A DNA stretch of 64,000 bases from Singulisphaera sp. GP187 (GTDB lineage: Bacteria > Planctomycetota > Phycisphaerae > Phycisphaerales > SM1A02), in NCBI GenBank assembly GCA_945871915.1, contig CAMBXO010000007.1:1-64000 (forward strand), in the 5' to 3' direction. The stretch's first letter is position 1, and each line of letters starts with the position of its first letter. Positions 8,655 through 16,949 of this stretch are shown one piece after another. The translations under genes were made by a program, and so were the position numbers. The notes under the pieces were generated by a model. That model ran no database searches. It was given only the letters and a program-made list of their open reading frames with translations, and was not told the DNA's origin.

Positions 8655-9656
8655 TTACGCGGGCAGTGCAGAGCGAAGGACTCGAAGCCAGTTGGCACAT
8701 TGAAATCCGGCGAGTTCGGGTTCTGAAAGTCCAGCCGCCGTGAGCGCGGCGTCAAGCGATGGCCATTCCTCTGGTCGTTGAATTCCAATGGGGCATTCGA
8801 GCGGCGTGAATCCACCGTCGAAATCGCTTCCCATGGCGATAGCGTGCGGGCCTGCAATGGATCGCACATGCAGCACATGTGCTACAGCGTCGGCAAGAGT
8901 TGCTGGGCGACCCTGTGCAAGAAATGCTCCGCACAAATTAAGCCCGGCAACACCGTTTCGTTGTGCAATGGATTTCAATTGCGAATCCGTCAGGTGCCGC
9001 GGCAGATCGCCGGTTAGCGTTGCTGAATTGGAATGGCTCGCTACCACGCAGCGTTCGGTTGTCTGCATGAGACCGTCGAAAGCGTTGCGACTGAGATGGG
9101 ACGCATCGTGAAGAATCCCAATCGCATCGAATGCCTGCACCAAGTCCCGACCGGCGGACGTAAGTGGGCCATCAGCACCATTGCCACCAGCCCAACGAGA
9201 TCCCAGTGCCCACGTCAATCCGACCATGCGAACGCCTTGTTCAAACCACCATGCCGCATCCTGTGGTGATTGAATGGGATCAGCCCCTTCCATCAGCAGA
9301 ACAATTCGCAACGGACCACTCGACCACTCCGCAAGATCGCTTCGATTGCGGACAATGCGGACCACACCTCGCGCTTCGAGCCCCTGATAGATGCGCAATT
9401 GAAGGCGAGCGGCGCGAGCAGCCTGTGTTCCATCATCATTGACCGGATAGCCCCATGGATCCTCGCTGCCAAGTTGGGTGAACAGTGTTGCACATGCAAG
9501 CCGCACCTGACCCTGTTGAAGGGCTGGAAAATTCACGCCGAATCGCCCTCGATCGGTTGACGAGGATTCAAGATCAACTCCCTGCAAAGCCAAATAGGCA
9601 AGGTCGAGGTGGCCGTCAATGCGTGGCGTGATGCTTGGCGACATGCGTGGCGTCAT
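8655..9656 (-). CDS. Membrane dipeptidase family protein (peptidase M19)
   Basis: A 333-residue member of the renal dipeptidase family, a binuclear zinc TIM barrel that cleaves dipeptides including D-residue ones. It has DGHLDL (metal H16 and D18), MEGADPI, HDASHLS, VASHSNS and GSDFDGG in family order. No signal peptide is visible, so it is probably cytoplasmic. The frame extends to TTG 9662; ATG 9656 is used, ATG 9644 is also possible. It converges on the preceding operon with a 7-bp gap and diverges from the DUF2752 gene. Confidence 0.88.
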   Translation of the reverse strand: MTPRMSPSITPRIDGHLDLAYLALQGVDLESSSTDRGRFGVNFPALQQGQVRLACATLFTQLGSEDPWGYPVNDDGTQAARAARLQLRIYQGLEARGVVRIVRNRSDLAEWSSGPLRIVLLMEGADPIQSPQDAAWWFEQGVRMVGLTWALGSRWAGGNGADGPLTSAGRDLVQAFDAIGILHDASHLSRNAFDGLMQTTERCVVASHSNSATLTGDLPRHLTDSQLKSIAQRNGVAGLNLCGAFLAQGRPATLADAVAHVLHVRSIAGPHAIAMGSDFDGGFTPLECPIGIQRPEEWPSLDAALTAAGLSEPELAGFQCANWLRVLRSALPA

Positions 9657-9745
9657 CGGCAAATTGTCCCTGATGCTCTGGACGTGTGAAGTCCTATTTT
9701 TCCAGCGATCGTGTGCACTCGAGAGTAGGCGGGAAGGGAGTAGAC

Positions 9746-10201
9746 TTGTTCAATCGTATGCAGACTCCGTATGCATGTCCTTGGAACCACCGGCTGATCG
9801 CGATGGGCGTCGCGGGGGCATGTGCTGCGCCGTTGGTTGTTGCGGCATGCGTGACTCCATCTGCCATGGGTTTCGATACGCATCGACAAATTGGTCTTCC
9901 AGGTTGTTCATGGCCGGCAGTGTTTGGTATGCCGTGCATCACTTGTGGCATGACCACCTCATTTGCGTATGGAGTGCGAGGGCAGCTTTTCACGAGCGTG
10001 TGGGTCCAGCCAGCCGGATTTTTATTGATGTGTGTGGCGGCCATGGGTGTCGTGGTTGGAGTGTGGACCAGCGTGAGTGGTCGACCCGTGTTTCGATTCC
10101 TCCAGCCAATGCTTCGCCCGCGGCTCGCATGGATTGCCTGCGGGGTGTTGGCATTCGGATGGATGTGGAAGACCAGCCTCTTTCGTGGGTGGATCTCATG
10201 A
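9746..10201 (+). CDS. DUF2752 integral membrane protein
   Basis: A protein of about 151 residues with four hydrophobic segments. Between the first two is the DUF2752 signature: GFDTHRQIGLPGCSWP, then PCITCGMTTSFAYGVRG with its cysteines. The family's function is unknown. TTG 9746 is chosen because GGGAG lies five bases before it; ATG 9758 has no such site. Its stop overlaps the next ATG (ATGA), making it the first gene of a four-gene run with two lipoproteins and a glycosyltransferase. Confidence 0.8.
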   Translation: MFNRMQTPYACPWNHRLIAMGVAGACAAPLVVAACVTPSAMGFDTHRQIGLPGCSWPAVFGMPCITCGMTTSFAYGVRGQLFTSVWVQPAGFLLMCVAAMGVVVGVWTSVSGRPVFRFLQPMLRPRLAWIACGVLAFGWMWKTSLFRGWIS

Positions 10202-10848
10202 TTCGATTTGTAATGGTTGCGTGCATGTTTTGTGCCCTGACCGGCTGCCAATTGCCCGGCATCATTGGTGCCGTTGGCCACAACATTGAGCGTGAAAAGA
10301 AGATTGAAGTCCTTGCCAAATACCCGGGCCTTGATAACAAACGAGTGGCCGTCATGGTGAAGGCAGACATGGGTGTGTTGTATGAACACCCGACCGCCAT
10401 CCCAAACATTGCCATGAACCTCTCGCAGCGCATCCATGAGAATGTGCCGGGGGTCACGGTGCTCGATCCGCGTACGGTTCTGAATTTTCAATATCAGCGA
10501 CCGTCGTGGGCTGCCATGAGCATGTCCGATATTGCGCAGGAACTTGATGTGGACCGCGTTGTTGTGGTGGACATCTACGAATATCGGCTTCACCCACCCG
10601 GCAACCGATGGATGTGGGAAGGTGTGGCTGGTGCGCATGTTGGTGTTTCGGAGCGAGACGGGATCGACGCCAGCGAAATGGTGGATCAGTGGAATGTGAT
10701 TGCAAAGTTTCCGCCGCAGGAGGGTTCAACGCGGGATCAGTTGAATCCGACTTTGGTGCAGAATGGGCTCATGGCCACCTTTGTGCGCAATGTTGCATGG
10801 GTGTTTTACGATCACATCGAAGACAAGTATCCGGACATCCGAAAGTGA
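10198..10848 (+). CDS. Putative lipoprotein, first of a related pair
   Basis: 216 residues with a lipoprotein signal: a short hydrophobic stretch and lipobox LTGC with Cys17. The mature part starts QLPGIIGAVGHNIEREKK and contains strand-like segments RVAVMVKAD, GVTVLDPRTVL and DRVVVVDIYEYRL. This recalls the alpha/beta anticodon-binding-like fold of LpoB/CsgG-type lipoproteins, but I cannot assign a family. The next gene shares the same order of segments. It overlaps both neighbours by four bases, so translation is probably coupled. Confidence 0.75.
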   Translation: MIRFVMVACMFCALTGCQLPGIIGAVGHNIEREKKIEVLAKYPGLDNKRVAVMVKADMGVLYEHPTAIPNIAMNLSQRIHENVPGVTVLDPRTVLNFQYQRPSWAAMSMSDIAQELDVDRVVVVDIYEYRLHPPGNRWMWEGVAGAHVGVSERDGIDASEMVDQWNVIAKFPPQEGSTRDQLNPTLVQNGLMATFVRNVAWVFYDHIEDKYPDIRK

Positions 10849-11504
10849 ATCGATTGCTGCTGAAAATGGCTACGTTGGCGATTCTGGTGATGCCTGTGGC
10901 ATGCAACATTGTGACACCTGTTGCCTACATTCTGGAGGGCCCGCCATCCAATGATGCACAGTTCACACTTCCGGATCGAAAGACGGTTGTGTTTGTGGAT
11001 GACCGGAAGAATGTTCTGAGCCGCACCCAGTTGCGAACGGCGATCGGCGACAAAGTCGCTGGCGATCTGATGCAGCAAGAGCTGGTCTCGGAAACCATTA
11101 CGACCCGCGATGCCGTGGCCGTGGCTCGCCGCGATGAGAACATGGACAACCCGCTTCCGATCAGTGAGATTGGCGAAAAAGTTGGTGCGGAAGTTGTGAT
11201 TTATGTGCGGGTGACAAGTTTCATGATTGCCGAACCTGGTGGCAATCCAATACCAAACGCTACGGCGATGGTGAAAGTGATCGATGTCACGAATCGGGCA
11301 AGACTGTTCCCCGAGGACAAAGAGAATCCCGGCATCAGTGTTGCATCGCAGATGAAGGAAGTGAGCCAGGATCTGTATCAGAGCACCACCGGGCGTCGGC
11401 AGATTGAAGACAAACTTGCAGATGAATTGGGAAATCGAATCGCCAAAGTCTTTTACAAACATGAAAAGGTCGAACTTGGAAAGGGCATGGGCGTTCGCAA
11501 GTGA
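10845..11504 (+). CDS. Putative lipoprotein, second of a related pair
   Basis: 219 residues from GTG 10845 (GTGA overlap). The N-terminus is a short hydrophobic signal ending VMPVAC (Cys20), a slightly atypical lipobox. The mature part repeats its neighbour's layout: a strand (KTVVFVDDRKNVL), a helix with the family-like pattern IGDKVAGDLMQQEL, then EKVGAEVVIYVRVTSF and TAMVKVIDVTNRARLF. The two genes look like diverged paralogues, perhaps forming a heteromer under the outer membrane; function unknown. Confidence 0.75.
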   Translation: MNRLLLKMATLAILVMPVACNIVTPVAYILEGPPSNDAQFTLPDRKTVVFVDDRKNVLSRTQLRTAIGDKVAGDLMQQELVSETITTRDAVAVARRDENMDNPLPISEIGEKVGAEVVIYVRVTSFMIAEPGGNPIPNATAMVKVIDVTNRARLFPEDKENPGISVASQMKEVSQDLYQSTTGRRQIEDKLADELGNRIAKVFYKHEKVELGKGMGVRK

Positions 11505-12580
11505 TCGCTTCGCAGGCGGTTGTGCATCTGATTGATCCGCATGGTCCAGGGGCGTCGTATGCCGCCGCGCGTCTTGCGGCGGGGGTGGCTTCGGCAGATT
11601 CCATGATTGCACTGGGGATTGCGCGGGACTCTGCCGCGTGGAAACCAGCGTGGCGCATTCCGATGACCGCGGGATCTGTTGGACTGGCTGCACGATCGCT
11701 GGAACGCATTGTTCAGGCGGCGCAAACAAGGCTGCTGGTTGCATGGGGTCACCGAGCCTGCGCCGTTGCGGTGCGAGCTGGGGATTCTGCGGCGAGGGTC
11801 TTGGTTATGGACGCGGTTCCAAAGGTGCAGGTGATTCCATTTGATGCAGAAGTCATCTGTCTTGGTGAGTCGGTTGCGAATGCTGCGATGCAAGCGGGAT
11901 GGCCTCCAATGCGTGTTCGGATTGCGCAACCACCAATGGTGGACATGGCATTACCGGATCCCGATGGAGTGCAGCGGAAACAACTTCGAAACACGTGGGG
12001 CTTGACGGATTCCTCGATGGCGATTGGCGTGCTACCCAATGCTCCCGATGAAGGGGATTCTGGAACGGCGTTTCACGTGGTCGCACGCGTTCGACTTACG
12101 GGGATTGATGCGCACTTAATCTTGCATCCTCACACGGTAGGGGCGGCGTCGATGGAAATTTGTGCTCGATCTGCTGGCCTTCGACACACCATTCACTTTG
12201 ACCAAGCTGTGAGACAACCAGAAGCCATCGCGTCAGGCATCGATGTCTGGATTTCGATTCCAGGAAAGCCCGTGGATGGCTCAGTTTTAGATCCAATGAT
12301 TGCTGCGGGATTGCATGCGCCCCTTGTGGTGCAGTCAGGATCGTTTGCTGCCCGCGCAGTTGAGCATGGCACCGACGGGTTGAGTGCTGAGGGCCTGAAT
12401 CGGATGGCCGCGGCAGTTCGCGGGCTGTGCCTTGATCCCGCTAAGCGAAAGGACTTGGCGTTTGCAGCCAAAGTTCGATTTGCAACCACTGCAAAGCGTC
12501 AGGCTTTTGCCGGTGTTTTTGCTGAGTGTGTCCAGCGCGCGGCCGCCTTCGATTCCAAAGTACTTGCGGCATCGGTGTAA
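11501..12580 (+). CDS. Putative GT-B glycosyltransferase-like protein
   Basis: 359 residues starting at GTG 11501, overlapping the lipoprotein stop by four bases. The pattern suggests a GT4-type fold: an N-terminal Rossmann half (VVHLIDPHGPGASYAAARLAAG), a linker, and a C-terminal half with GVLPNAPDEG, LILHPH and a late APLVVQSGSFAARAVEHGTDGLS segment. That last segment matches the acceptor-to-sugar nucleotide region (normally AxxxGxxExIxxGxxG), but the usual Glu is not clear. It may be inactive or have an unusual donor. Its last 82 bp overlap the convergent amidohydrolase. Confidence 0.65.
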   Translation: MIASQAVVHLIDPHGPGASYAAARLAAGVASADSMIALGIARDSAAWKPAWRIPMTAGSVGLAARSLERIVQAAQTRLLVAWGHRACAVAVRAGDSAARVLVMDAVPKVQVIPFDAEVICLGESVANAAMQAGWPPMRVRIAQPPMVDMALPDPDGVQRKQLRNTWGLTDSSMAIGVLPNAPDEGDSGTAFHVVARVRLTGIDAHLILHPHTVGAASMEICARSAGLRHTIHFDQAVRQPEAIASGIDVWISIPGKPVDGSVLDPMIAAGLHAPLVVQSGSFAARAVEHGTDGLSAEGLNRMAAAVRGLCLDPAKRKDLAFAAKVRFATTAKRQAFAGVFAECVQRAAAFDSKVLAASV

Positions 12581-13716
12581 AGACTCTTCAGAAGATGGGG
12601 CGGAAGCGACAATCCGCGAAGCCTTGGCGCATCCATGGGTTGATGGCGATCCGGAGCAACCATGGCAAGGTCTGGATCAGCGATCGGACTTGGTCCATCG
12701 TGATTGGTTTCCCAGAGCGTTCGCAGAGCCCAGTATCGGCTGGCATACAAGTCAAAGGCGTCGGTGGGCGTGTTGGCCTTCGCGCCCATTTCTGTTTTTC
12801 CAGTTGCGACCGAGAGATGATCGTCTGTGGTCACAATGTCACTTCCAAAAATAATTCGTCCTGTGAAACGTTCCAGAAACGCAATCATGGATCCGGGATC
12901 ATGTTTCGACAATTCACGAATCATCCACTTTGTGGCGCTGGTGTCTAGATGCAAGTTGGGGTGTCGGTCGAGCAGGCCAGTGAGAAATTCAAGATCCTCT
13001 GGCCAACCACCCATGTGTGCCGCAATCCACAATACAGGAAACTGATCGAGCAACCGCTCGAGTGGTCGATAGTGGGACTGCTTGGTTCCGTAGACACTGG
13101 CATTGCTGTATCGCGTTGCAAACCAAGTGTCTGGGTCAGCAACATGGGTCATGAAGCCCATGCCAAGTGAAGCCGCCAAGGTCATCGCCTCAATCCGTTG
13201 CGGTGCATCAAGGCGAAACAGTTCTGGATCGCCATACTCGATTGCAAAATCCGTAATTCGTGGAGCGGCCCAGAACTTGACCCAGTGGGCTCCCTCGGCG
13301 TGGTAGGCCGTAATTCGATCGAGGAATTGGCTGCCATGTGCCGCTCGGCGATCTTTGGAAGCGAAGTCCGGCACTGCAATCAGGCGAAGGCGTTTCCCAA
13401 GAATCTGGCGAATGGCTGGGATCTGTTCGAGAGCAGTCATCGACCAAATGGTTTCAATGCCATACAGATCCATGGCATCTCGCAACAGCGCCGTGGCTCG
13501 CGTGCCGTTCACATGCGCATGCGCATCCACGATCCCATATGGCAGTTTTTGAAATCGATTCGCTTCGGTGCGGTAGTCCAACCCAAGCAGATTCGATGGA
13601 TTCACCGGCACGAAGGAATGATAGTCGCTCTTAGCGAGAACGCGTCTTAAGCGGTCGCTTGACGCCGGCCTTGGAGAGACGAGATCGCACGGCGCTTCGA
13701 GTGGCCACACGATCAT
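12499..13716 (-). CDS. Amidohydrolase family (TIM-barrel metal hydrolase)
   Basis: 405 residues of the amidohydrolase-2 type. VDAHAHVNG gives the first HxH metal pair; MTHVADPDTW and WIAAHMGGWPEDL give later histidines; IIFGSDIVTT gives the barrel-end Asp. The substrate cannot be told. The N-terminal 60 residues (PSNLLGLDYRTEANRF) precede the barrel. ATG 13716 makes it overlap the upstream gene by 86 bp; no good start lies between it and the barrel. Its 3' end overlaps the convergent glycosyltransferase gene by 82 bp. Confidence 0.85.
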   Translation of the reverse strand: MIVWPLEAPCDLVSPRPASSDRLRRVLAKSDYHSFVPVNPSNLLGLDYRTEANRFQKLPYGIVDAHAHVNGTRATALLRDAMDLYGIETIWSMTALEQIPAIRQILGKRLRLIAVPDFASKDRRAAHGSQFLDRITAYHAEGAHWVKFWAAPRITDFAIEYGDPELFRLDAPQRIEAMTLAASLGMGFMTHVADPDTWFATRYSNASVYGTKQSHYRPLERLLDQFPVLWIAAHMGGWPEDLEFLTGLLDRHPNLHLDTSATKWMIRELSKHDPGSMIAFLERFTGRIIFGSDIVTTDDHLSVATGKTEMGAKANTPTDAFDLYASRYWALRTLWETNHDGPSPIADPDLAMVAPDRHQPMDAPRLRGLSLPPHLLKSLYTDAASTLESKAAARWTHSAKTPAKA

Positions 13717-14182
13717 GATTCAATCGCCCAGCATGGTGAATGCCAGCGATATACATCTCATGGTCGGACTCGATGTCGAGATTGCGGATCAGTTCGCAGT
13801 CCATCCACCACAACGCCCGCGTGGGCACCGGGGACATCGATGGTGTGGTGAGATGTGGAAGACCCAGAAACGGATCACGGCCATGATCAGGCAGCGCCTG
13901 AAAGATTCGATCGATCAATGGATCGTCATCCATCACGCGACACAACGCAAAGTTTCGTGAGTCGCGAATGATCGGGCTCATGGCCTGCCCCTTTTCAATC
14001 GCCACCACAATCATGGGCGGATGCACGGCGCATTGCTGCACCCATCGAACGAGCGCCGCCGACCGCAACTCACCAAACCGACTGGTCAGCAAAAAACGAC
14101 CGGAAGGGATTGCGTCGAGCAAATCCACAATTTCCGATCGCGACATTGGCGGCCAGTCTCGTCTGGAGCTCACGCGTGCCAC
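13631..14182 (-). CDS. Flavin-reductase-like FMN-binding protein
   Basis: 183 residues. The order LDAIPSGRFLLTSRFGE, AALVRWVQQCAVHPPMIVVAIEKG, SPIIRDSRNFALCRV and DCELIRNLDIESDHEMYIAGI is that of flavin reductase domain proteins, where the first loop and the cysteine segment touch FMN. The tail is basic (KRPLKTRSR). The start is GTG 14182; ATG 14146 is an alternative. A TATAAT box lies 12 bases upstream of the GTG, so a leaderless or very short leader is likely if GTG is used. It overlaps the start of the amidohydrolase gene, implying one transcript. Confidence 0.75.
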   Translation of the reverse strand: MARVSSRRDWPPMSRSEIVDLLDAIPSGRFLLTSRFGELRSAALVRWVQQCAVHPPMIVVAIEKGQAMSPIIRDSRNFALCRVMDDDPLIDRIFQALPDHGRDPFLGLPHLTTPSMSPVPTRALWWMDCELIRNLDIESDHEMYIAGIHHAGRLNHDRVATRSAVRSRLSKAGVKRPLKTRSR

Positions 14183-14193
14183 ACTAACCGAGA

Positions 14194-14224
14194 ATTATAA
14201 AAAAGCGAGCATAAACTGCTGCAA
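14194..14224 (-). promoter_or_regulatory. Promoter of the flavin-reductase/amidohydrolase pair
   Basis: On the minus strand a perfect TATAAT (14194-14199) lies 12 bases before GTG 14182, with TTGCAG (14219-14224) 19 bp upstream of it. The -10 box is convincing, the -35 less so. Confidence 0.5.
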
Positions 14225-14291
14225 TGAAACGAGTTATCAGATATAGGACGATGCCATACAGGCACGCCAATGGAGTTTCAAATGGTGAATA

Positions 14292-14353
14292 GTGTGTAGT
14301 TGGGTGGAAATGTGGGGCTAAGTGTTGCAAAGTGGGGCATGATGATTTAGAGT
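14292..14353 (+). promoter_or_regulatory. mraZ promoter overlapped by MraZ-type repeats
   Basis: GTGGGG at 14312 and 14332 and GTGTTG at 14322 are exactly 10 bp apart, with weaker fits in the same phase at 14302 (GGGTGG) and 14292 (GTGTGT). MraZ regulators are known to bind several TGGGN boxes with 5-nt spacers, i.e. the same 10-bp spacing. TTGCAA (14325-14330) and TAGAGT (14348-14353), 17 bp apart, form a candidate promoter inside this array, so autorepression is likely. The rest of 14183-14371 shows nothing else clear. Confidence 0.7.
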
Positions 14354-14371
14354 GCTTTCACAGGTGAATCC

Positions 14372-14836
14372 ATGCTCTTCATTGGCGAGTTTGAACATGA
14401 GCTTGATGCAAAGCAACGGCTCGCGATTCCGTCGGAGTTGCGAGCGTGCTTGCCGCGTGACGGTGAAGATGCCGTCTTCGTTGCTGCGCCGGGTCCCAAT
14501 CGTTGCGTTTGGTTGTGGCCCGAAGTCACCTTCGAAGAACTTTCCAAAACTCTTGGCGGCTCGCTGGTCGGCGACGACTCCATGCAGAGTTTTGAACGCC
14601 TCCTCTTCAGCCAATCGGCTAGGACACCGCTGGACAAAGCCGGGCGCATTCGCATTCCCGATCGAATGCTCGAGCGCTTCGGATTGTCTGGCACCATCGT
14701 CATTCTCGGAGTGCGTGATCATTTGGAACTTTGTTCCGTCTCTCAATGGAAGGGAGAACACAATCAGCTTGAGCCTGCCACGGCTGAAGTATGGCGTAAG
14801 GCTCGCGAGGCACTTCGCAACCGAAAGAAGGAGTGA
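14372..14836 (+). CDS. mraZ: Transcriptional regulator MraZ
   Basis: 154 residues with two SpoVT/AbrB-like halves: GEFEHELDAKQRLAIPSELR at the start and LDKAGRIRIPDRMLERFGL in the middle, followed by IVILGVRDHLELCSVSQW, the normal MraZ layout. MraZ forms ring oligomers that bind the promoter of its own operon, usually the division/cell-wall (dcw) cluster. Here no rsmH or other dcw gene follows; the next transcribed element is a GGA-rich RNA and then csrA. AGGTGA four bases before ATG 14372 supports the start. Confidence 0.92.
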   Translation: MLFIGEFEHELDAKQRLAIPSELRACLPRDGEDAVFVAAPGPNRCVWLWPEVTFEELSKTLGGSLVGDDSMQSFERLLFSQSARTPLDKAGRIRIPDRMLERFGLSGTIVILGVRDHLELCSVSQWKGEHNQLEPATAEVWRKAREALRNRKKE

Positions 14837-15133
14837 GGTGTCTCGCAACATGACTTCCGACGCCACCGCGGGATATGCGGTGGAGCCAGCGAAGATCCGC
14901 CCTCGGTCAAGGAAGGCCGGCGGCGGGTCATAGGCGGATGGTTGGAGATCGAGGCCGGCCAAGGATGGCCCCCCACGATCCACCCGATCCGCGAAGGATG
15001 CACGGGCCATGGAAGGCCCGATTGATCGAGGACCTGATCGCCAAGGATGGCGGCGGGAACTCTGAATGCCGCACTGGGCATTCATCCGTCTATGCCCCCG
15101 CAGTAGGACGCTCCTGCGGGGGCATTTCTTTTT
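14837..15133 (+). ncRNA. Candidate CsrB/RsmZ-type CsrA-sequestering RNA
   Basis: No convincing reading frame fills this stretch between mraZ and csrA, but it is full of small hairpins with GGA in the loop. They are: stem CCACCGC/GCGGTGG, loop GGGATAT (14863-14883); CGGTC/GGCCG, loop AAGGAA (14904-14919); GGCC/GGCC, loop AAGGAT (14957-14970); CCG/CGG, imperfect, loop AAGGATG (14989-15005); CGGGCC/GGCCCG, loop ATGGAA (15003-15020); GATC/GATC, loop GAGGACCT (15024-15039); CGCC/GGCG, loop AAGGAT (15039-15052). A GGA-free hairpin (15064-15083) and a strong terminator close the unit. CsrA is known to bind ARGGAUG with GGA in a hairpin loop, and CsrB/RsmY/RsmZ are arrays of such loops ending in a terminator. 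The 5' end is unknown; it may be the 3' UTR of mraZ or have its own promoter. Confidence 0.72.
15092..15133 (+). terminator. Strong intrinsic terminator before csrA
   Basis: Twelve perfect base pairs (ATGCCCCCGCAG, 15092-15103, with CTGCGGGGGCAT, 15114-15125), a 10-nt loop that also contains AGGA, then TTTCTTTTT. It ends the mraZ/GGA-rich RNA transcript and separates it from csrA. Confidence 0.92.
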
Positions 15134-15158
15134 GCTAGGAAACGAGCAAAAATAGGGG

Positions 15159-15283
15159 TTGGGTCACAAGAGCCTTCGGTGTAGATTGATGATCCGGGTC
15201 CATAGGGACCCACGGATTGGTTCGCACGGATTCGCGGAGGCTTGGAGCACCGCGGCGAACTGACCCGGATAGGAGGTCCACCG
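15159..15283 (+). promoter_or_regulatory. csrA promoter and GGA-rich leader
   Basis: TTGGGT (15159-15164) and TAGATT (15182-15187) are 17 bp apart. The leader then has a GGGTCC/GGACCC hairpin and six GGA triplets between about 15220 and 15275. One lies in the Shine-Dalgarno (ATAGGAGG, ending 8 bases before ATG 15284). A GGA inside the ribosome site plus upstream GGAs is the known layout for CsrA autorepression. Confidence 0.6.
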
Positions 15284-15520
15284 ATGCTTGTCATTACCCG
15301 CCGAGAGGGCGAAGAAGTCGTCATCGGAAACCCATCTGCCCCGCTCGGCATCGTCCGCATTGCGTCGATTAAGGGAGATCGTGTGCGGCTTGCCTTTGAG
15401 TTTCCCCGTGAAGTGGATGTGCACCGCCGTGAAGTGGCGGAGCAGATCGTGGCTGCGGAAAATGCGGGCAACCCCATCGCTGGTCAGATTCGACCTGCAG
15501 CCGGTGGTGAGAACGCCTGA
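15284..15520 (+). CDS. csrA: Carbon storage regulator CsrA
   Basis: 78 residues: MLVITRREGEEVVIG, IVRIASIKGDRVRLAFEFP and EVDVHRREVAEQI match the whole CsrA core, including the strand-1 RNA-binding segment and the VHR arginine of strand 5. A two-residue insertion (NPSAP) extends the first loop compared with E. coli, and the tail is short. CsrA dimers bind GGA in mRNA leaders to change translation and decay. A strong AGGAGG precedes the ATG. No fliW or flagellar gene lies nearby; instead a GGA-loop RNA lies just upstream. The next gene overlaps its end. Confidence 0.95.
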   Translation: MLVITRREGEEVVIGNPSAPLGIVRIASIKGDRVRLAFEFPREVDVHRREVAEQIVAAENAGNPIAGQIRPAAGGENA

Positions 15521-16949
15521 ATTGCTCTTGCGATCGCTGTGTGTGATTATGGTGATTGTGGCTGCCTGCGGCGGAGCCAGTTATCGCGGCGATCCAATGA
15601 AAGTCATTTCGGATACGGGAGCAATGCCCACCTCACAACTTGCGGCGATGGAGTCGCTCGACGTTGCACCGACGCCTGAATACATCAAGCAATTGAAGCG
15701 CATGCTGTTTCAACCAGGGTTCACGCAGGAAGTGCGCGTGGCCGCATTTGATCGGTTGCAACGGCTCGATGAAAAAGAACTCAAACAACTCATCGCCACA
15801 AAACTTCCGACCTATGAGGGGCTCCAGTGGCGAGAATGGATGTGTCAACGAATTGCGACACAGGGGTGGAAGGATCTCACGCCAACTCTTGTGCGAGCGT
15901 GGGCGGTCTCTAAGCCAGGATGGGTCGACAAGGACTCGGATCGGCCTGAATACAAGGCGTTGGTGGCACTGCATGGAGAGGGCAACGTGGTGGATGTCCT
16001 TGTGGATTTGCTTGTGAATTCCAATCCAGTCACGGAACGCAATCTTCGATTTCGATGTTGGGAATTGTTGCAGAAGCAGGGGCAGCGTGAGCGTCTCATT
16101 GCTGTGCTGGCTCAGACGACGGTGCAACCGGATGACGCCATGCTGCGAGACATTCGTCGCTGTGCCAACGAATTAGGAATTGTGCCAGCGACGAAGGAAG
16201 AAATCCTATGGCTGCAAGCCCTGTTGACCACGGCGAACGCAGGATTTTGGGCGGAGGCCAAGGCAGCCGCGGAAAAGTTGCCCGCGGCCACTCGCGCGTC
16301 GCTGGAAATTCGCGAGTTGCCGATTGCAGTAGCCGCCGCTCGATTTCAACCCGAGTTACTGCAGGCGAGCAATCCGGAGTTGTATGCACGCGTGGAAGCC
16401 AGACGCAATGCCAACGGAAGTCGAATTGTGACGGCAACCTTGGAGGGCTATGGAAGTGACTTTACTGAGACGCTCTACGCGCAGCGGAACACCTTTCGTT
16501 GGGGCGATCTTGCCGCAATGTCGCTGGCCATGGATGTGATGGACGATCCGGCGATCCGTAAGACGCTCTTCAATCTGGCGGATCGAGATTTGCAAGATGG
16601 CGATACGGAATATGGAGGTCTGATTGCCGTGGACAGCAAGGGCCAAGTCCAATTGATCGAGTGCACGCCGCGTGTTCGCGGGAATGATTTACGATTCGAA
16701 GCGCCCCAAACGATGTTTGATCAGGCGTACACAGGCCTTTTTCACTTTCATCTGCATGCGCAGAGTTACGACAACAGCCGCTACGCCGGGCCTCACATGG
16801 GCGACTTTGCCTATGCCAACAGCACCCGTGCCAATTGCTTGGTGTTTACATTTCTGCGCAAGCGGGAGCTGAATGTGGACTTCTACCGACACGGGCCGGT
16901 GGTGGTCGATCTTGGCAGCATCATGCGACCAGGAACGGAAGGTGGATGA
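15507..16949 (+). CDS. Lipoprotein with alpha-helical repeats and a JAMM-like C-terminal domain
   Basis: About 480 residues. The N-terminus has a lipoprotein signal ending IVAAC. Residues 50-330 are helical and HEAT-like. The C-terminal 120 residues look like a JAB/MPN metalloprotease fold: EYGGLIAVD with E368 before GG, then FHFHLH giving H415xH417, and GPHMGD with D433. This parallels the JAMM pattern E...HxH...SxxD, with His430 in the serine position. Protease activity is inferred only. The start is GTG 15507 (GTG 15504 or TTG 15522 possible); it overlaps csrA. dapF follows with overlap. Confidence 0.7.
   Translation: MRTPELLLRSLCVIMVIVAACGGASYRGDPMKVISDTGAMPTSQLAAMESLDVAPTPEYIKQLKRMLFQPGFTQEVRVAAFDRLQRLDEKELKQLIATKLPTYEGLQWREWMCQRIATQGWKDLTPTLVRAWAVSKPGWVDKDSDRPEYKALVALHGEGNVVDVLVDLLVNSNPVTERNLRFRCWELLQKQGQRERLIAVLAQTTVQPDDAMLRDIRRCANELGIVPATKEEILWLQALLTTANAGFWAEAKAAAEKLPAATRASLEIRELPIAVAAARFQPELLQASNPELYARVEARRNANGSRIVTATLEGYGSDFTETLYAQRNTFRWGDLAAMSLAMDVMDDPAIRKTLFNLADRDLQDGDTEYGGLIAVDSKGQVQLIECTPRVRGNDLRFEAPQTMFDQAYTGLFHFHLHAQSYDNSRYAGPHMGDFAYANSTRANCLVFTFLRKRELNVDFYRHGPVVVDLGSIMRPGTEGG

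Follow-up and report, generated by a model that had tools for sequence, protein, structure and literature searches.

Layout of the locus

The window (the whole stretch of DNA that was analyzed, 64 000 nt) comes from a freshwater planctomycete. A hairpin array RNA, which could be either the 3′ UTR of mraZ or a separate small RNA, sits in it between two regulator genes, mraZ and csrA2, all on the + strand (Table 1). MraZ is a regulator that usually heads the division cluster, and TGGG-type repeats are its recognition sequence. Repeats of this kind lie just 5′ of mraZ; the GTGGGGCNNNGTGTTGCNNNGTGGGG-type repeat has one match in the window where 0.01 was expected, and repeats 5′ of mraZ were also seen, by eye, in genus relatives. 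The first-pass annotation of this DNA had named csrA as the gene following the array. That is true, but the gene is a second, divergent paralogue (csrA2); the canonical copy (csrA1, 82 bits to PF02599) is on another contig of the same genome, where it adjoins fliW (104 bits).

Table 1. Features of the mraZ–csrA2 locus, in window coordinates
Feature	Position	Strand	Evidence or remark
Three direct repeats, 10-bp period, GTGGGGCNNNGTGTTGCNNNGTGGGG	14312..14337	+	Just 5′ of mraZ; candidate MraZ operator
mraZ, 154 aa	14372..14836	+	Pfam PF02381, 62 bits; gene preceding the array
Csr-type hairpin array RNA, 297 nt	14837..15133	+	Fold z, covariation, strict-hairpin count
Hairpin H1, loop GGATA	14863..14883	+	Minimum-energy folds
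Hairpin H2, hexaloop AAGGAA, strict Csr-type site	14903..14920	+	Folds, strict count
Hairpin H3, hexaloop AAGGAT, strict Csr-type site	14957..14970	+	Folds, strict count
Hairpin H4, hexaloop ATGGAA, strict Csr-type site	15003..15020	+	Folds, strict count
Hairpin H5, hexaloop AAGGAT, strict Csr-type site	15038..15053	+	Folds, strict count
Hairpin H6, no GGA, covarying stem	15064..15083	+	Folds, covariation
Intrinsic terminator, 12-bp stem and U run	15092..15134	+	Stem 15092-15103/15114-15125, then TTTCTTTTT
GGA-bearing hairpin, csrA2 leader	15233..15254	+	Genus-conserved in alignment; fold
csrA2, second CsrA paralogue, 78 aa	15284..15520	+	PF02599, 53.9 bits (cut-off 27)

Fold of the array and chance controls

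The array folds at −154.9 kcal/mol (z −5.3), and none of 200 shuffles was equally stable. The fold consists of five GGA-loop hairpins, one hairpin without GGA, and the terminator, whose loop holds one GGA. There are 12 GGA triplets in the array, four of them in the form CANGGANG. We call a hairpin strict if it has an exact ANGGAN hexaloop on at least four pairs; the array has four, against a shuffle mean of 0.027, and none of 5000 shuffles reached four. Scored by GGA hairpins per 300 nt, the array stands at 5-6; the strand mean over the window, with the array counted in, is ~0.3, and the other strand never exceeds 2. Outside the array the window has seven strict hairpins with both strands summed, or 0.025 per 450 nt of strand. 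The cluster of GGA-loop hairpins claimed in the first pass therefore stands, with five in the minimum-energy folds and four of these strict, beyond what shuffles give, as does the 12-bp terminator said to close the unit. Its count of seven hairpins was too high, and neither fold places the AAGGATG that it listed (GGA at 14996) in a hairpin loop.

We also considered a coding reading of the array (an 87-codon ORF, 14875-15138) and rejected it, because gaps of 1, 2 and 5 bases disrupt the frame among relatives.

No sigma-70-like consensus for a separate RNA promoter was found on the + strand from 14180 to 15600, and third-position identity in the last mraZ codons showed no clear rise. The box TGTAAGN6CTTACA, which lies upstream of Csr RNAs driven by Gac/BarA-UvrY, had no match with up to 3 mismatches from 9512 to 16714. 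An Rfam scan of the whole window brought only a tRNA elsewhere above its cut-off. RsmW and RsmY are members of Rfam clan CL00106, with which CsrB/CsrC, RsmX and RsmZ are grouped; against this clan the array scored 16.1 bits for RsmW (cut-off 52) and 14.7 for RsmY (cut-off 57), which is chance level, and kinship to known Rfam families was rejected on these scores. In a separate count, the host genome had 183 occurrences of the pattern SSCANGGANGSS and the reversed control gave 77; a genome-wide excess of single Csr-like sites is therefore possible, with coding bias as an alternative.

Conservation within the genus

The array is complete in 14 of the 16 genus genomes (the host included); in G010 it is split across contigs and in G002 the contig ends too early. 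Over the 14 genomes, 95.8% of the 738 cells of the named structure are paired. Changes on both sides of a pair occur in 19 of its 53 pairs (59 cells), compared with 10.9 pairs and 18.8 cells in shuffles. Sliding the structure by 1-3 columns left at most 7 pairs and 18 cells doubly changed, a comparison that favours the tested structure to the extent that it was named from two of the aligned sequences themselves (the alignment was made by sequence). The number of further pair types showed no excess (33 versus 32.8 in shuffles). An independent RNAalifold consensus gave double changes in 24 of 70 pairs. None of the 14 rows departs from the A or the GGA in the loops of H2 to H5 (16 of 16 columns constant), whereas both N positions of every one of these loops are variable (8 of 8). 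The stem of H1 is kept, with double changes in 4 of its 7 pairs, and its GGA is retained in 6 of the 14 genomes; the terminator has 4 of 12 pairs doubly changed in the genus.

These patterns indicate, as far as alignment can tell, that the structure of the array is maintained by selection. Across the 14 genomes the loop A/GGA is invariant and the stems covary. The first pass had proposed looking for relatives that keep neither loops nor stems; we did so, and the genus relatives keep both.

A DNA similarity search matched most of the region in four other genomes of the genus and parts of it in further ones of the genus; matches outside the genus were short and were left unused. The heptamer ATCCGTC (15084-15090), immediately 5′ of the terminator, does not vary among the 14 genus sequences; pairing with the upstream CGAATGG is one possible role for it, service as a pairing seed another.

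Linkage to mraZ in the family and order

When 700 nt upstream of csrA2 were searched in other family genomes, the array at first seemed confined to the genus and a handful of genera. This was wrong, because most family genomes searched have the array facing csrA2 from the mraZ side. We searched 37 family genomes. All 33 that have both genes on one contig (14 of the genus and 19 others) have mraZ and csrA2 within ~0.85 kb of each other. Outside the genus the distance from the mraZ stop to csrA2 is 320-848 nt, with the two genes in tandem in 4 genomes and convergent in 15. The array is found 3′ of mraZ and on the mraZ strand in tandem and convergent family loci alike, and more weakly so in the order. 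Thus mraZ is the anchor, not a position upstream of csrA as first described, since csrA2 faces the array in those 15 of the 19 family genomes outside the genus. In the other families of the order, csrA2 was absent from the stretch around mraZ in 23 loci, and hairpins were often still present behind mraZ.

We examined 450 nt 3′ of the mraZ stop in 44 loci, 43 outside the genus plus the short stretch of G002, whose contig stops 120 nt past mraZ and which was entered as zero. There were 80 strict hairpins, all in the 43 non-genus loci (a total that includes one at a second mraZ of G027, far from csrA2), and none on the reverse strand; shuffles of the 44 loci gave an expectation of 1.08. Around canonical csrA and rsmH genes, used as controls, the rate was 0.097 strict hairpins per 450 nt, part of it due to flagellin-leader hairpins. 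At least two strict hairpins were present in 18 of 19 family loci with adjacent csrA2 versus 7 of 23 loci of other families; by family, with the second mraZ of G027 kept apart, the tally was 18/19 in f1, 3/6 in f2, 1/1 in f3, 0/6 in f4, 2/6 in f5 and 1/4 in f6. G027 had only one strict hairpin. Five genomes gave no usable array count: G002, G010 (mraZ and csrA2 on separate contigs), G025 (neither mraZ nor csrA), G029 (without mraZ, and with a second csrA match that could not be aligned with csrA2) and G053 (without mraZ). A terminator-like stem with a U run was flagged in some of the 14 relatives that were folded (e.g. G031, G040 and G054).

A second test selected on GGA only. All hairpins with a six-base loop and five or more pairs were collected from 400 nt of each of 42 loci, with the second mraZ of G027 omitted. 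GGA occupied loop positions 3-5 in 59 of 150 such hairpins, where 4.3 were expected by triplet frequency, and in 3 on the reverse strand. Two features that had not been selected for went with it: the first loop base was A in 58 of the 59, and the closing pair was C-G in 53 of the 59 versus 29 of the 91 other hexaloops.

We built a covariance model (R1) from the 3′ half of the array (130 positions, 13 genus sequences). In the host genome it finds one place only at E up to 1, which by this model makes a second array copy there unlikely. Beyond the genus it matched the mraZ-csrA2 gap of G032 (E 5e-11), G030 (1e-8), G026 (0.0013) and G016 (0.0015). The last two matches are weak on their own, because R1 also matches away from mraZ, at best in G021 (E 0.0005) and, within the genus, in G010 (0.004). 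Some genus genomes show weak matches on the opposite strand of the same place.

CsrA paralogues and FliW

Members of the csrA2 subfamily carry a four-residue insertion relative to Escherichia coli CsrA at about residue 18-19. The subfamily spans most order genomes searched, with no such match in family f5 except odd hits in G056. Aligned to 1y00, CsrA2 keeps L2, R6, V42 and R44 (E. coli numbering). R6 and R44 are present in 46 of 46 CsrA2 sequences (one of them kept despite a 442-residue frame), with V or I at position 42.

G016, G020 and G032, which represent three genera and are 94-96% complete, keep csrA2 and the array, and neither canonical csrA nor fliW was detected in them. Because these genomes keep the array with a csrA2-type gene only and no fliW, they point to CsrA2 as the partner of the array. 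Five f5 genomes with only canonical csrA (G040, G044, G048, G052 and G060) have 3, 1, 0, 2 and 1 hairpins, and in the f4 genomes with csrA2 hairpins are nearly absent (2 in 6 loci).

The leader of csrA2 (15220-15283) has three GGA motifs, two of them invariant in 14 genus sequences and one in 13. An AGGAGG ribosome site precedes 32 of 52 csrA2 genes and is folded into a small hairpin in some. The GGA hairpin of this leader, together with AGGAGG, is a possible site of CsrA autoregulation.

At the csrA1 loci of the family and order (L023-L052) there is a CAATC[AAGGAG]GATTG-type hairpin ~150-300 nt after the csrA1 domain. It was found in 21 of 31 loci and contains the apparent ribosome site of a flagellin gene, called by eye in three frames from a flagellin-like N-terminus. 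This flagellin-leader hairpin is a likely target of CsrA1, and we take it as a positive control for the Csr motif.

mraZ and rsmH outside the order

We extended the search to 28 of the 46 non-order genomes of the class with mraZ (those whose locus was returned) and to 27 of 47 genomes of the phylum (mraZ being placed weakly in one of the 27). Of the 28 loci from other orders of the class, 23 have rsmH following mraZ and 17 have strict hairpins in the 450 nt downstream of mraZ, 27 hairpins in all where the control rate predicts ~3. Among these 17 loci the hairpins are in the gap before rsmH in eight, the sole hairpin is at the rsmH start codon in one, a hairpin is inside rsmH in four (all of family f20), and rsmH is absent from this place in four. 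At two f15 loci (L238 and L243, one of them among the eight gap loci) a hexaloop ATGGAT contains the start codon of rsmH. The hairpins suggest that CsrA could control rsmH directly outside the order. A strict hairpin was found in 2 of the 27 loci from other classes of the phylum. Of these 27, 24 have rsmH behind mraZ, and in 15 of the 24 the distance exceeds 100 nt; a gap alone is therefore insufficient to account for hairpins.

Within the order, rsmH is located elsewhere in 13 of 13 genomes searched. Its leader was considered as a second array and rejected, with no strict hairpin in 10 genomes (from 15 loci, of which three could not be placed by signature and two were second pieces of split matches). 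The simplest history that we infer is that rsmH moved away while the CsrA sites kept their place behind mraZ, and that csrA2 came alongside in the family.

Interpretation and proposed mechanism

The first-pass observation is real in substance and partly confirmed, and its interpretation is partly supported. We take the array to be a genuine Csr-type RNA element under selection, with that of a sponge as its most likely role. That it binds CsrA in some manner we regard as highly probable; the support is strong because the loops are conserved, the stems covary, the loop A and the C-G closing pairs are as in RsmE/CsrA ligands, and the adjacent csrA retains the key RNA-contact residues. Parts of two published sources describe comparable ligands: the SELEX consensus RUACARGGAUGU and the ANGGAN hexaloop are given as Csr/Rsm ligand features (PMC7652899), and the loop of RsmZ SL2 is AAGGAC (PMC13287468).

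For the mechanism, we propose that 14837-15133 would be transcribed with or after mraZ, as one transcript or a processed 3′ piece, and would end at its own terminator. The folded RNA would be a string of small hairpins, with the C[ANGGAN]G hexaloop that marks a high-affinity Csr/Rsm site on four of them. CsrA2 dimers from the next gene, perhaps CsrA1 also, would dock on these hexaloops, and CsrA2 would be titrated away from its mRNA targets in the way that CsrB/RsmZ act in Gammaproteobacteria. Since the array keeps to mraZ and mraZ itself is preceded by a conserved repeat, MraZ probably sets the dose of the RNA, which would couple this regulator of the division cluster to the activity of CsrA2. 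Transcription as one RNA, CsrA2 binding, titration in trans and MraZ control are all steps that we infer from sequence. We lean towards titration of CsrA2 by this mraZ-linked RNA as its main role, working as CsrB/RsmZ do.

The alternative that comes closest to the same data is a cis element, in which the array is the 3′ UTR of mraZ, serves CsrA control of the stability or translation of its own transcript, and is no sponge; ancestrally it would perhaps have been the mraZ-rsmH leader. Its position 3′ of mraZ on the same strand, whether csrA2 is tandem or convergent, fits such an element, and anchoring to mraZ rather than to csrA2 is equally expected of it. So do the 17 of 28 class loci with strict hairpins behind mraZ, eight of them in the gap before rsmH, and the two f15 loci whose hexaloop holds the rsmH start codon. 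Yet the array persists in the order although rsmH has moved elsewhere and has a hairpin-free leader, and csrA2 came beside the array in the very family where arrays are richest. We consider it unlikely that cis control is the whole account; titration and cis control of the mraZ transcript can both be true.

A sponge for CsrA2 also has to be weighed against the f5 genomes that have hairpins without a csrA2-type gene, the f4 genomes that have csrA2 with almost no hairpins, and the four strong sites of the array, fewer than CsrB has. The f5 hairpins would be explained if the partner were canonical CsrA1 from fliW-csrA1 and the csrA2 neighbourhood incidental. CsrA1 shares R6, V42 and R44, and the same motif occurs in the hairpin near csrA1, probably a flagellin leader. 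This we hold to be quite improbable, given that the array persists in G016, G020 and G032, where csrA1 and fliW went undetected, and that hairpins are more numerous where csrA2 adjoins. Least of all do we credit a structured RNA unrelated to CsrA, its GGA loops being Shine-Dalgarno-like decoys or chance products of high G+C. The AAGGAT loop does resemble a ribosome site and the region is G+C-rich and strongly folded, but loops such as ATGGAC and ACGGAC are not Shine-Dalgarno-like, the A two bases before GGA (58/59) and the C-G closing pair (53/59) are too regular for this reading, and shuffles give ~1 hairpin where 80 were observed.

Relation to known systems

The array resembles CsrB/CsrC and RsmX/Y/Z/W in its several short ANGGAN-loop hairpins, C-G closing pairs, end terminator and presumed titration of CsrA. 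It differs from them in having no Rfam match, in its planctomycete host, in its place beside mraZ and csrA2, and in that neither a GacA/UvrY-type box nearby nor a promoter of its own was seen. The fim leader of Salmonella is an mRNA-borne titrator of CsrA; it and its like also have CsrA sites on an mRNA that are able to act in trans, whereas in the array the sites follow a regulator gene and turn up again and again within an order. The FliW-CsrA module, found beside canonical csrA1 in the same genome, likewise contains a CsrA antagonist, but FliW is a protein.

sRNA antagonists of CsrA are described in many Gammaproteobacteria. In passages of the published sources, FliW and sRNA mimicry are called mutually exclusive (PMC7366521), joint use of FliW and an sRNA in any species is said to remain to be determined (PMC7652899), and planctomycetes are said possibly to use FliW (PMC4682653). 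Among the matches listed in our literature search, which also covered mraZ together with CsrA, CsrA or small RNAs in Phycisphaerae, CsrA beyond the Gammaproteobacteria and mRNA-borne titrators, titles and the starts of abstracts contained no planctomycete Csr-type sponge RNA. Novelty is provisional, because this coverage leaves out most subscription papers and all bioRxiv preprints. What would be new is the host phylum, the anchoring to mraZ and the coexistence with FliW; a CsrB/RsmZ-like mode of working is already known.

Sponge control of CsrA is otherwise known mainly from very different bacteria. Here a single genome has both FliW and a candidate array RNA, next to one csrA paralogue each, and the three genera that have only the csrA2-array pair offer a natural comparison. 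A fuller picture, which we offer tentatively and with rather more doubt than confidence, is of two CsrA circuits per cell in planctomycetes of this order, one in which FliW antagonises CsrA1 at flagellin and one in which CsrA2 is antagonised by an RNA sponge in the 3′ part of the mraZ transcript, born in the old mraZ-rsmH leader and dosed by MraZ. If true, MraZ would be tied to a global RNA regulator, so that control of the division cluster would feed global post-transcriptional control, and the array would be a sponge whose possible origin, an operon leader, remains visible in sister orders.
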